The notes beneath the pieces were generated by a model. It searched no databases and was not told the DNA's origin. It saw only the letters and a list, made by a program, of their open reading frames with translations. A stretch of 64,000 bases of DNA, taken from Betaproteobacteria bacterium (GTDB lineage: Bacteria > Pseudomonadota > Gammaproteobacteria > Burkholderiales > Burkholderiaceae_A). The DNA is taken from contig VGHN01000003.1 in NCBI GenBank assembly GCA_016868255.1, positions 62,001 to 126,000 on the forward strand. The letters are read 5' to 3'. This document shows, piece by piece, positions 25,223 to 29,827 of the stretch. Each line of letters starts with the position of its first letter. Within the stretch, counting starts at the first letter, position 1. The translations under genes and the position numbers were made by a program.

Positions 25223-27664
25223 GTGTCCAAAACCGACCTGCTTCCTCCAGACGCCACCGTGCTGCCCCTCTTGCCTCTCAGAGATGTGGTGGTCTTTCCG
25301 CACATGGTCATTCCCCTCTTTGTGGGCCGGCCCAAGTCCATCAAGGCCATGGAGCGGGCCATGGAGTCGGGCAGCCACGTGTTGCTGGCCGCCCAACGCA
25401 GCCCCACGCAAGACGACCCGGGCCTCGATGACATTTATTCAATTGGTTGCTTGGCCTCGATCCTCCAAATGCTCAAGCTTCCAGATGGCACCGTGAAGGT
25501 GCTGGTCGAGGGAACGCAACGCGCCCGACTCACCGACCTGCAAGACAATGGCGACCACCTAGTGTGCGAGTGCAGCCCGATGCAGCCCGATGAAGAAGAC
25601 GGCCCCGAGCTCGAGGCCCTCCGTCGCACGCTGCTCTCGCAGTTCGATCAGTTTGTAAAGCTCAACAAGAAGATTCCCGCTGAGATTCTCAATAGCCTTG
25701 TGAGTCTTGAAGATGCCGGCCGTCTTGCGGACACCATTGCCGCCCACCTGCCGATGAAGCTTGAGCAGAAGCAGGAGATTCTCGAGGTCATTCCGGTGGC
25801 CGAGCGTCTCGAGAAACTGCTCGCGCAGATCGAGACCGAGCTCGACATCCTCCAGGTGGAGAAGCGGATTCGTGGTCGGGTCAAGCGCCAGATGGAGAAG
25901 AGCCAGCGCGAGTATTACCTCAACGAGCAGGTGAAAGCCATTCAGAAGGAGTTGGGCGAGGGCGAGGACAACGAACTCGACGAGCTCGACAAGAAGATCA
26001 AGGCGGCTCGGATGCCCAAAGAGGCCCGAGACAAGGCCCAGTCAGAGCTCAAGAAGCTTCGAATGATGTCACCCATGTCCGCAGAGGCCACTGTGGTGCG
26101 CAACTACATCGATGCCTTGGTGGGCCTGCCCTGGAAGAAGAAAAGCAAGGTCAATATCAACCTTGATAAGGCCGAGAAGGTTCTGGAGGAAGAGCACTAC
26201 GGACTGGAGAAGGTCAAGGAGCGCATTCTCGAGGCGCTGGCTGTGCAGCAGCGTGTCGACAAGGTGAAGGCGCCCATTCTCTGCCTCGTGGGTCCCCCGG
26301 GTGTGGGAAAGACCTCGCTTGGCCAATCGATCGCCCGCGCAACCAATCGCAAGTTCGTTCGTATGGCGCTGGGTGGTGTTCGCGATGAGTCAGAGATTCG
26401 CGGCCATCGACGCACCTACATTGGGTCGATGCCCGGCAAGATCCTCACCAGTCTTACCAAAACCGGCGTGCGCAATCCTTTGTTCCTTCTCGATGAAGTC
26501 GACAAGATGGGAATGGATTTCCGTGGCGATCCCGCCAGTGCTTTGCTCGAGGTCCTCGACCCCGAACAGAACAACACCTTTGTCGACCACTACATTGAGG
26601 TGGAGTACGACCTCTCGGATGTGATGTTTGTTGCGACCGCCAACTCTCTGAACATCCCCCCTGCGCTGCTCGACCGCATGGAGGTCATTCGGCTCTCCGG
26701 CTACACCGAGGACGAAAAGGTGAGCATCGCTCAGAAGTATCTTCTGCCCAAGCAAATCAAGCAGACGGGGCTCAAAGACAATGAACTGGCTGTGCAGGAG
26801 TCGGCCATTCGGGAGATTATTCGTAGCTATACCCGCGAGGCCGGTGTGCGGGGTCTCGAGAGGGAGATCTCGAAGATCTGCCGCAAGGTTGTCCGCCTCA
26901 TTCTCACTGGGAGAGAGAAGGGGCCGATCGAGGTCAAGGCCGAGAACATCGAGGACTTTCTCAGCGTCAAGAAATTCACATTTGGTGTTGCCGAGAAGGA
27001 AGACCAGGTCGGTGAGGTCACTGGCCTGGCCTGGACCGAGGTCGGCGGTGAGTTGCTCATGATTGAGGCGGCAGTCATGCCCGGCAAGGGCAACATCATT
27101 CGCACCGGCTCACTCGGTGATGTAATGAAAGAGTCTGTGGAGGCAGCGCGGTCGGTTGTTCGCAGTCGCTCGCGTCGCCTGGGTATCGCCGACGATGTCT
27201 TTGAGAAGCGCGATCTCCACATTCATGCCCCCGAGGGCGCCACACCGAAAGACGGGCCCAGTGCGGGCATTGCGATGACCACGGCAATGGTCTCCGCCCT
27301 CACAGGAATCCCGGTGCGATCCACGGTGGCCATGACAGGAGAAATCACCCTCAGGGGTGAGGTCCTTCAGATTGGCGGTCTCAAAGAGAAGCTGCTTGCC
27401 GCGCACCGGGGTGGCATTAAAACAGTGCTCATTCCCGAGCAGAATGTTCGCGACCTCGCGGAGATTCCCGACAATGTGAAGAACGCGCTCGAGATCATCC
27501 CCGTGCGTTGGATAGATCGGGTGCTCGAACTCGCCCTGGCCTCCATGCCCGAGCCGCTTCCCGAGCCTGAAATCGACCCCAAGGCGGCCGTGGCGGCCTC
27601 GCCTGCTGTGGCGGCCGAGGTCGAGAAGGAGCGCGGCTCAGCGGGTGACACGCTGAAACATTAG
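25223..27664 (+). CDS. lon: ATP-dependent protease Lon
   Basis: Lon degrades misfolded and regulatory proteins in the cytosol. The 813 residues comprise the N-terminal LAN domain ([20 protein letters not shown]), a coiled helical linker, an AAA+ module with Walker A GPPGVGKT (about residue 355) and Walker [11 protein letters not shown], and a C-terminal serine-lysine protease domain with Ser680 in [11 protein letters not shown] and Lys723 in [14 protein letters not shown]. The start is a GTG preceded by AAAGGACGACCTGA, a good Shine-Dalgarno. A short Pro/Ala/Glu-rich tail follows the protease domain. hupB lies downstream, as in E. coli. Confidence 0.97.
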
Positions 27665-27777: not shown

Positions 27778-28050
27778 GTGAATAAAACAGAATTAATTGA
27801 ACACATCGCCAAGAATGCAGACCTCTCCAAGGCGGCTGCCGGGCGCGCCCTGGATTCCATGCTCTCGGGTGTTCGCGCAACACTCAAAAAGGGTGGGTCG
27901 GTGACCCTGGTCGGGTTTGGCACATTTGCCGTGACCAAGCGTGCGGCTCGCACCGGGCGCAATCCTCGTACCGGAGATGCAATCAAGATCAAGGCTTCAA
28001 AGCTGCCCCGGTTTCGTCCTGGCAAGGCCCTGAAGGACGCCCTGAACTAG
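27778..28050 (+). CDS. hupB: DNA-binding protein HU-beta
   Basis: HU is the small nucleoid protein that bends and wraps DNA as a dimer. The 90 residues match the family: [19 protein letters not shown] at the N-terminus, GFGTFAV at the core and the DNA-gripping arm with [10 protein letters not shown]. The start codon is GTG with an AGGA Shine-Dalgarno 7-8 bp upstream. The gene follows lon after 113 bp; that gap holds a weak hairpin (GGCCCA/TGGGTC, no T-run) but no promoter I could define. Identity is secure. Confidence 0.97.
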
Positions 28051-28138: not shown

Positions 28139-28214
28139 GGGTGCTTAGCTCAGTTGGTAGAGCGGCGCCCTTACAAGGCGTAGGTCGGGAGTTCGAGCCT
28201 CTCAGCACCCACCA
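28139..28214 (+). tRNA. tRNA-Val (anticodon UAC)
   Basis: A 76-nt tRNA with acceptor stem GGGTGCT/AGCACCC, discriminator A and encoded CCA. The D arm is AGCTCAGTTGGTAGAGC. The anticodon stem GCGCC/GGCGT has a terminal G-U wobble, the loop CTTACAA contains anticodon TAC, and the T loop is TTCGAGC. It lies 47 bp before tRNA-Asp and is probably cotranscribed with it. Confidence 0.97.
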
Positions 28215-28261: not shown

Positions 28262-28338
28262 GGAGCGGTAGTTCAGTCGGTTAGAATACCGGCCTGTCAC
28301 GCCGGGGGTCGCGGGTTCGAGTCCCGTCCGCTCCGCCA
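28262..28338 (+). tRNA. tRNA-Asp (anticodon GUC)
   Basis: A 77-nt tRNA with acceptor stem GGAGCGG/CCGCTCC, discriminator G (an identity element for aspartate) and encoded CCA. The anticodon stem CCGGC/GCCGG flanks the loop CTGTCAC with anticodon GTC. It ends 10 bp before the ppiD-like gene, so the tRNA processing site lies almost at that gene's start codon. Confidence 0.97.
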
Positions 28339-28348
28339 ATTTCCTCTC

Positions 28349-29827
28349 ATGCTCGAGTTCATCCGCTCCAATCGCAGGCTTCTTCAGTTTGTTCTGCTGC
28401 TTTTTATCGTTCCATCGTTTGTGGTGGTCGGTGCGTGGGACATGGTCAACCCGAACGCGGGCGCCAATACGGTGGCGGTCGTCAACGGCAAGAAGATCGA
28501 CCGTTCGGCATGGGAAGAGGCCCATCGCCGCTCAATCGACAACATGAGCCAGCAGTTCGGCGGTCAACTTCCAGCCGATCTCATCAACACGCCCGCTGCG
28601 CGTCAGTCCTCGCTTGAAGAGTTGGTGACTCGTGCACTCATCATCGAGGCCGCCAATGCCCAGGGGCTTCGTGTCTCAGACGAGTTTCTGAAATCCATCA
28701 TCTCCAATATCCCGGAGTTCCAAGAGGCTGGGGTCTTCAAGCTCGAGAAGGCACAGGCATTTCTAAAGTCGCGTGGCTTGACCTCCGAGGGATTTGAAGC
28801 CGGCCTGAGACAAGACCTCTCCGCAGAGTGGCTCCCCAGGTCGATTGCTGATTCATCGATTGGATCGCGCCGACTTGCGCGTCAGCTCTCGCGCGCCGAG
28901 ACGGAGCTGCGCGAACTCCGCATCGAGCGCTTCTCGCCCCAGTCTTTCTTGTCGCAGTCGGTTCCCTCCGCCGATGAGATTCGTGCGCACTTCGATGCCA
29001 GCGCCTCTCGGTATCAGTCTGCGGAGCAGGTCGATCTCGAGCTGGTCATACTCTCTGGGCAGCGCTCTGCTGCCGACATTGAGTCCTTTGCGAACATGGT
29101 CTACGAGCAAAGCGACAGCCTCGCGCCGGCCAGCGAGAAGTTCAAGCTGCCCATCATTCGAGTGAAAAATCTGGAGCGGGGCCGATCGGTCAGCGTGGCC
29201 CAGGCAGGCAGCAACGAAGCCGCACTCGTGCTGAATCATCCCAAGCTGGCCGATCAGATCTTTCGCCCCGATGTGGTGACCGATCGCCGCAACACCGAGT
29301 CGGTTGAGATCAGACCAGGGCTGCATGCGAGTCTGCGCGTGGCCGATTATCGACCCGCACGCCCCTTGCCCTTTGATGCTGTCGCAGGCGCCATTCGAGC
29401 TGAATTGCAGCAGAAAAAGGCCGAGAAGCTTGCTGTCGATGCCGCGCTGGCATGGGGCCAGCAGTCCAATGCGGGCCGTTCAGTTCGAATTGAGCGTGCC
29501 GATGCGGCCGGTGCGATCAAGGCCGTTGGTCTTACCACCGAGTCGTCCAATGCTCGACGCGTTCTGACGGAACTCTTCTCTGACTCGCTGCGCGCGGGCC
29601 AGCCCAAGGTCATCGATTTGGGTCGCGATGGAAGTCTTGCCGTGGTCTTGGTGTCCACTCGGCTGCAGGCCTCTGATGCGCCGCTGGTTCGCCAGCGCCT
29701 GGGTGCAGCCTTCTCACTGATCGAGCAGATCGATGGCGAGGCCGCCACACGCAGTTGGCTTCAGGAAATGGAGAACCGCTACGAGGTTGAGCGTTTCCCC
29801 AAGAGGCTTGAGGCCGCCGCTTCGTAG
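28349..29827 (+). CDS. ppiD: PpiD-like periplasmic chaperone lacking the parvulin domain
   Basis: The 492-residue protein has a PpiD N-terminus (MLEFIRSNRRLLQFVLLLFI), one membrane anchor (about residues 11-29) and a SurA-like chaperone region (KIDRSAWEEAHR to about 230). PpiD of relatives has roughly 620-640 residues with a parvulin PPIase domain in the middle. Here the text passes from VDLELVILSGQRSAAD straight to IESFANMVYEQSDSLAP, which in full-length PpiD follows the parvulin domain. The C-terminal part (RNTESVEIRPGLHASLRVAD onward) is normal. The frame is intact, so it looks like a clean domain loss rather than decay. The last 49 bp overlap the convergent mnmH. Confidence 0.85.
   Translation: MLEFIRSNRRLLQFVLLLFIVPSFVVVGAWDMVNPNAGANTVAVVNGKKIDRSAWEEAHRRSIDNMSQQFGGQLPADLINTPAARQSSLEELVTRALIIEAANAQGLRVSDEFLKSIISNIPEFQEAGVFKLEKAQAFLKSRGLTSEGFEAGLRQDLSAEWLPRSIADSSIGSRRLARQLSRAETELRELRIERFSPQSFLSQSVPSADEIRAHFDASASRYQSAEQVDLELVILSGQRSAADIESFANMVYEQSDSLAPASEKFKLPIIRVKNLERGRSVSVAQAGSNEAALVLNHPKLADQIFRPDVVTDRRNTESVEIRPGLHASLRVADYRPARPLPFDAVAGAIRAELQQKKAEKLAVDAALAWGQQSNAGRSVRIERADAAGAIKAVGLTTESSNARRVLTELFSDSLRAGQPKVIDLGRDGSLAVVLVSTRLQASDAPLVRQRLGAAFSLIEQIDGEAATRSWLQEMENRYEVERFPKRLEAAAS

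Follow-up and report, generated by a model that had tools for sequence, protein, structure and literature searches.

The window analysed here, a stretch of 64,000 nucleotides from a draft betaproteobacterial genome (49 contigs, 84% complete), contains a ppiD-like open reading frame that begins with ATG, ends with TAG and specifies 492 residues without an internal stop. Upstream lie clpX-, lon- and HU-like genes, named from their translations, followed by genes for tRNA-Val and tRNA-Asp (Table 1). The conserved PpiD locus, in which ppiD adjoins lon, is present in the window and also in genomes G011 and G055. At its 3' end the gene shares 49 bases (29779-29827) with a reading frame on the opposite strand (31050-29779), in a convergent overlap.

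Table 1. Genes at the ppiD locus and parts of the encoded protein, in window coordinates.
Feature	Position	Strand	Basis or remark
lon-like gene, conserved neighbour	25223..27664	+	named from translation
HU-like DNA-binding protein gene	27778..28050	+	named from translation
tRNA-Val(tac)	28139..28214	+	
tRNA-Asp(gtc)	28262..28338	+	10 bases ahead of the ppiD start
ppiD-like gene, parvulin-less PpiD orthologue, 492 aa	28349..29827	+	ORF, translation, Pfam, relatives
N-terminal membrane anchor (predicted), residues 9-31	28373..28441	+	AlphaFold2 helix (low pLDDT, 24-34) and hydrophobic stretch
SurA-like chaperone (NC) domain, residues ~38-184	28460..28900	+	SurA_N_3 match, VIA-align to SurA
Outer ("second") domain, first part: strand 187-195, helices to 217	28907..28999	+	model comparison and excerpted domain description (PMC9643414)
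Middle ("third") module, residues ~221-338, divergent, probably parvulin-like, uninterrupted	29009..29362	+	model, VIA-align, Rotamase_2
Excision junction, residues 236-248	29054..29092	+	alignment to full-length PpiD, which has ~157 extra residues there, including the catalytic parvulin
Outer domain, second part, residues 342-438	29372..29662	+	window model compared with full-length model
NC domain C-terminal helix, residues 445-477	29681..29779	+	window model

The protein was examined for the parts expected of PpiD. A single N-terminal membrane anchor is predicted, from a model helix and a hydrophobic stretch, and the SurA-like N-terminal chaperone region is represented by a SurA_N_3 match over residues 1-159 (E 8.6e-39). 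The parvulin is another matter. Neither Rotamase (PF00639) nor Rotamase_3 (PF13616) was matched by the window protein in the Pfam search, and both are absent from the families matched by 17 short (parvulin-less) proteins; Rotamase_2 appeared at residues 206-345 below threshold (E 0.0078, 17.5 bits, cut-off 27). An HMM of the parvulin domain, made from full-length Burkholderiales PpiD proteins, gave the window protein 0.8 bits, compared with 94.8-181.3 bits in 53 of 54 named loci of the full-length type, the 54th (L070) stopping at 67 aa. These searches bear out the original prediction that the parvulin had been removed from PpiD, and they confirm that the gene encodes an intact PpiD orthologue without the catalytic parvulin, or PPIase, domain.

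Alignment with full-length Burkholderiales PpiD defines what is missing. A conserved Leu235 and Asn249 are separated by 13 residues in the window protein and by 170 at the matching residues of the full-length protein L059. About 157 residues are therefore gone, comprising a helix-strand linker, the parvulin of about 105 residues and the helix after it, and with them the segment that carries the catalytic His-Asp-His. On either side of the join the sequence aligns to the full-length proteins, on the left with the strand VDLELVIL and on the right with FANMVYEQSDS. The site of the join had been placed correctly beforehand, and the excision is, as had been proposed, clean and in frame; the earlier estimate of roughly 100 absent residues was too small.

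A sequence search was made of 61 genomes, including the window's own, 26 of which belong to the window's family (f1). The gene was found in 25 of the 26 and the parvulin in none of these 25, in which the parvulin HMM never exceeded 5.6 bits; 23 of the genes are complete reading frames of 484-527 aa. The clade thus shares the deletion, with the same junction in 24 further family genomes. A misassembly or a chimera around positions 29050-29090, which the 49 contigs of the draft might have suggested and which had been named beforehand (at about 29050-29080) as a threat to the claim, is excluded by this recurrence of the join in every gene-bearing family genome, among them the single-contig G011 and Burkholderiales bacterium LSUCC0115, an isolate that belongs to the MWH-UniPo clade and has a genome of 1.84 Mb (PMC6952679). 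Among the other Burkholderiales genomes searched, 33 of 35 have frames of 614-699 aa; in G031 the gene is fragmented and in G055 it is short.

Three members of the family depart from this pattern. G014, the 26th genome, has neither a ppiD nor a lon match, so that the locus as a whole seems to be missing there; loss of ppiD only was considered and rejected, because the lon match is missing too. In G016 the gene is cut by a contig end. In G005 (L010/L051) a TAA stop ends the frame at 232 aa, while the match spans query residues 1-490; this stop, unique among the 25 members, is either a pseudogene mutation or a sequencing error. A few database titles also conflict with the placement of their PpiD sequences. 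L056 (PCAV01000115.1), titled Rhodospirillaceae, is close to the window's marine relatives and is probably a mislabelled or mixed MAG. L036 (CAMAZF010000004.1) and L091 (CAMCYY010000036.1) are both titled Bordetella parapertussis and both fall outside the Alcaligenaceae rows of the tree described below, L036 within the window's clade; each is probably a mislabelled MAG. L095 bears the same title and is not among the tree rows.

It is scarcely conceivable that the gene encodes a different SurA- or PrsA-like paralogue rather than PpiD. The NCBIfam PpiD equivalog model NF008054 does score the window protein at 101.8 bits, far under its cut-off of 493. However, the lon neighbour, the same anchor and the alignment of both join flanks to full-length PpiD argue for orthology, as does the position of the protein among Burkholderiales PpiDs on the tree, and G011 contains a single match and no second full-length PpiD.

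A decaying pseudogene on its way to complete loss might be suspected from the stop in G005, and from the loss of at least two catalytic residues in six of 29 full-length proteins elsewhere in the class. This reading, which we judge extremely unlikely, is opposed by the 23 complete frames of the family and by the pattern of substitution. Eight close pairs of genes lacking the parvulin were compared, four from genus g33 (introduced below) and four from f1. Their pN/pS was 0.01-0.22 in all regions and 0.04-0.15 in the middle module; many dS values in these pairs were saturated, and the pairs consist of relatives, with the window's own gene in none. Close pairs of parvulin-less ppiD genes are under strong purifying selection, which points to a working protein. 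The original prediction of a functional chaperone without isomerase activity is to this extent upheld; its chaperone part would rest on the analogy with E. coli taken up below.

An AlphaFold2 model of the window protein, computed with 32 relatives, had a mean pLDDT of 90.3, with 94-97 across the join, and a pTM of 0.63, which leaves the placement of the domains loose. The corresponding model of full-length L059 (pLDDT 86.8, pTM 0.48) consists of three nested units. The outer one is formed by a strand at 188-197 and a segment from helix 494 to strand 585; within it lies a middle unit, from a strand at 228-237 and a segment from helix 378 to strand 487, and within this an inner catalytic unit, which starts at strand 268 and ends with strand 371. 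In the model of the window protein the outer and middle units are kept, with their elements in the full-length order. Its middle unit is unbroken and comprises a strand at 227-235, helices at 241-265, a strand at 269-276, further helices and strands at 319-335. Both predicted models agree with the E. coli protein, whose second and third domains are described as "of similar structural fold" in excerpts of PMC9643414. A PDB sequence search with the window protein returned a single hit, at chance level. With VIA-align, the top solved structure for the model was the PpiD-YfgM complex 8zht (Z 13.3, rmsd 13.3 over 413), and the NC domain matched SurA, for example 8pz2_F (Z 11.8, rmsd 3.7 over 155).

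The middle module, at about residues 221-338, is probably a divergent parvulin-like host for the lost domain. In the predicted structure, residues 221-333 superpose on the PPIase domain of Pin1 (Z 7.1, rmsd 3.4 over 93) and residues 224-342 on that of BB0108 (Z 8.1, rmsd 5.2 over 104). VIA-align's own note grades Z values of 7-8 as middling, and the catalytic domain of the full-length model reached 15.4-18.0 in rows confined to that domain. Weak Rotamase_2 matches were present in all 17 short proteins (best E 6.4e-8), and with the isolated module in 18 of 19 proteins, the sole miss being the window's own segment. A profile comparison of the module with the catalytic parvulin gave a probability of 95% (E 3.9e-8). 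The signal sits in the first 34 residues, a helix and the first strand, which alone gave 96.7%, and the other columns gave 1%; 60 column shuffles gave 2.5% at most. When the module's profile was searched against the PDB, no parvulin reached a convincing E-value; the best SurA-like hit, 3rfw (E 0.0041), covered positions 2-42. Because the sequence signal is confined to the first 34 residues and weak elsewhere, the parvulin-like reading rests mainly on the predicted fold.

The superposition on Pin1 and the Rotamase_2 matches might suggest that this remaining module still isomerises prolines. We regard this as very unlikely, since N249 and N315 are the only invariant residues of the module among 19 proteins, no His-Asp-His is conserved, and only the module's first 34 residues resemble the catalytic parvulin in sequence. 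The same evidence bears on a degenerate parvulin in residues 200-260, which had been set out beforehand as an observation that would count against a deletion. A divergent, probably parvulin-like module does lie there; as the full-length proteins indicate, it is the host that flanks the catalytic parvulin and not a remnant of it.

Parvulin-less PpiD is not confined to the window's family. A profile spanning the join matched 366 of the 399 genomes searched in the order. Among the matches listed, only those from 12 of the 13 sampled f1 genomes and from six genomes of genus g33 span the join; the remainder begin no earlier than model position 24 and come from frames 599-789 aa long. The six proteins of g33 all lack the parvulin and measure 487-488 aa. 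Their genomes measure 1.7-2.1 Mb, with a GC content of 43-47% at the ppiD loci. Genus g33 is part of family f31. In six further genomes sampled from that family the frames run to 649-660 aa; five of these genomes measure 6.0-7.8 Mb and one 1.2 Mb. Two MAG loci, L053 and L055, are also without the parvulin and have a different join. In the class, the same profile matched 200 of the 369 genomes searched; 196 of the matching genomes lie outside the order, and 146 of these are among the matches listed. Of 20 candidates examined there, 19 were without parvulin, and G527, cut by a contig end, has it. A sample of 398 genomes of the phylum, 78 with matches, yielded no new parvulin-less case with this profile, which hardly reaches other classes.

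A tree was calculated from 101 proteins (43 short, 58 full-length) with the parvulin columns left out, by a quick search without bootstrap and with rows picked partly to include siblings of opposite state. On it the short state requires 12 changes, a count that cannot tell gain from loss; loss was assumed because the domain occupies the same place throughout. Family f1 forms one clade (SH-aLRT 100), and the two states stand together in each of the class families f146, f156, f163, f184 and f202 (SH-aLRT at least 95). Within the order, recurrence would be overstated if one inherited loss covered both f1 and g33, and an AU test did not reject a clade of the two (p 0.338, with 44 rows and a simpler model). 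We consider a single loss rather unlikely nevertheless: the tree joins g33 to the f31 genus g94 with 97% SH-aLRT, and the other sampled members of f31 have the long frames noted above. There is good evidence, then, that loss of the parvulin from PpiD recurs across lineages.

The parvulin-less state tends to accompany smaller genomes. In the class sample, among the matches listed, the median genome is 1.7 Mb for the 19 short proteins and 2.9 Mb for 124 full-length ones, defined as frames of at least 609 aa, with three others set aside, of which G527 has the domain. The difference has a Mann-Whitney p of 2.4e-8, calculated from rounded sizes and with kinship ignored. In every one of the five mixed families the genome with the short protein is smaller than its full-length counterpart, in some cases by little (1.9 versus 2.0 Mb in f202). 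An exception is G214 of f31, which at 1.2 Mb keeps a 650-aa frame.

Was the lost domain active? The residues His273, Asp318 and His363 (L059 numbering), which we take to be the catalytic residues of the parvulin, are kept in all 29 full-length Burkholderiales PpiDs (28 distinct) and are invariant in an overlapping set of 28. This conservation suggests that the domain lost from the window's lineage was probably an active enzyme. It had been proposed that an inactive or dispensable domain was dropped, as reported for E. coli, where the parvulin is inactive through a mutated critical histidine (as cited in the excerpted text of PMC9797188) and not needed in the assays excerpted from PMC2956729; the Burkholderiales sequences lend this rationale no support. 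Elsewhere in the class all three residues are kept in 21 of 29 full-length PpiDs, and two have Gln in place of the last His. The six in which at least two are lost, already mentioned, are L155/L197 (G506), L180 (G626), L184 (G767), L186 (G427), L189 (G465) and L199 (G576). In families f146 and f202 full-length siblings have such decayed parvulins and other members have the domain deleted, as expected if decay of the active site preceded deletion there. Judging from their residues, the decayed full-length proteins in these two families are possible intermediates.

The surroundings of the protein in the cell may be inferred in part from its genome. TPR_21, which we take to be the domain of YfgM, gave a strong match (at least 96 bits) in 23 of the 26 family genomes, including the window's own; the profile search was weak in G017 and G025 and gave nothing in G005. 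The YfgM-type gene of the window's genome (G000:C5) encodes a 239-aa frame with a TPR_21 E-value of 2.3e-38, so that the partner expected of PpiD is present. In excerpts of PMC9643414, the C-terminal NC helix of an E. coli PpiD model contacts YfgM. We also considered whether the lost domain had moved elsewhere. This is unlikely, as PF00639 is found in the 84% complete genome only in SurA (451 aa, two matches) and in a PrsA-like protein of 280 aa (one match). The gene for the latter (G000:C3:134372-134611) is on the window's contig, about 8 kb past the end of the window.

As a whole, these observations confirm a real, fixed and clean loss of the catalytic domain of PpiD in the window's family, and hence a naturally parvulin-less form of a known chaperone. 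With high confidence we favor the following account. PpiD would be built like nested dolls, in which a SurA-like body contains the outer domain, this the middle module and this in turn the catalytic parvulin. An in-frame deletion in an ancestor of the family would have excised the parvulin along with the adjoining linker helices, leaving the middle module continuous again. The remaining protein would most likely stay at the Sec translocon by its membrane anchor, together with YfgM, and act as a chaperone that holds proteins of the periplasm and outer membrane as they emerge, prolyl isomerisation being left to SurA and the PrsA-like parvulin. Genome streamlining may have been the driver. The window protein is thus best read as a chaperone beside the translocon that has been deprived of its PPIase activity in a streamlined lineage. 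A broader generalisation appears reasonably likely to us: the parvulin may be a removable cartridge in a parvulin-like host module, and one shed on many parallel occasions by genome-reduced Gammaproteobacteria and Burkholderiales, in some cases once the active site had decayed. What is conserved in PpiD would then be its work as a chaperone without isomerase activity, alongside YfgM at the translocon, and the isomerase would be an option kept mainly in larger genomes.

These natural deletions, together with related genomes that keep the domain, offer a testable comparison on why PpiD carries a parvulin at all, and a cultured isolate, LSUCC0115, carries the parvulin-less variant. No description of a natural parvulin-less PpiD was found in the openly licensed PubMed Central literature, as far as its excerpted text extends. 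Excerpts of PMC5368265 report activity for Cj0694, a PpiD-like protein of Campylobacter, and in those of PMC9797188 the PpiD parvulin is predicted to grip DsbA, a predicted contact that the bacteria described here cannot use.

Compared with E. coli PpiD as described in excerpts of PMC9643414, the window protein has the anchor (predicted), the SurA-like NC domain, the outer and middle domains, the C-terminal helix and a YfgM-type gene in the same genome, and it differs in being without the parvulin and its linker helices. The closest likeness is to the laboratory construct PpiD-deltaParv of E. coli, from which the same kind of domain was removed and the rest kept. In excerpts of PMC2956729 this construct is still a chaperone: surA skp cells are rescued by it, though a little less effectively than by the wild type, and it seemed less stable; its protection of citrate synthase exceeds that of the wild type. 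Chaperone action without isomerase activity in the window protein would follow by analogy. The deletion in the window's family is natural and fixed, unlike the construct, and removed a domain that was probably active, whereas that of E. coli is reported to be inactive; the end points may also differ. The SurA-like chaperone fold is shared with the SurA core (N and C domains without parvulins), which complements without PPIase in E. coli (excerpts of PMC2956729); unlike the core, the window protein is membrane-anchored, as predicted, and has two extra nested domains. To PrsA-type foldases and parvulins the middle module shows a distant similarity of predicted fold, although it has no conserved catalytic residues. 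Nature thus repeated, in one small-genome family and apparently in several other lineages, a deletion that had been made by hand in E. coli.
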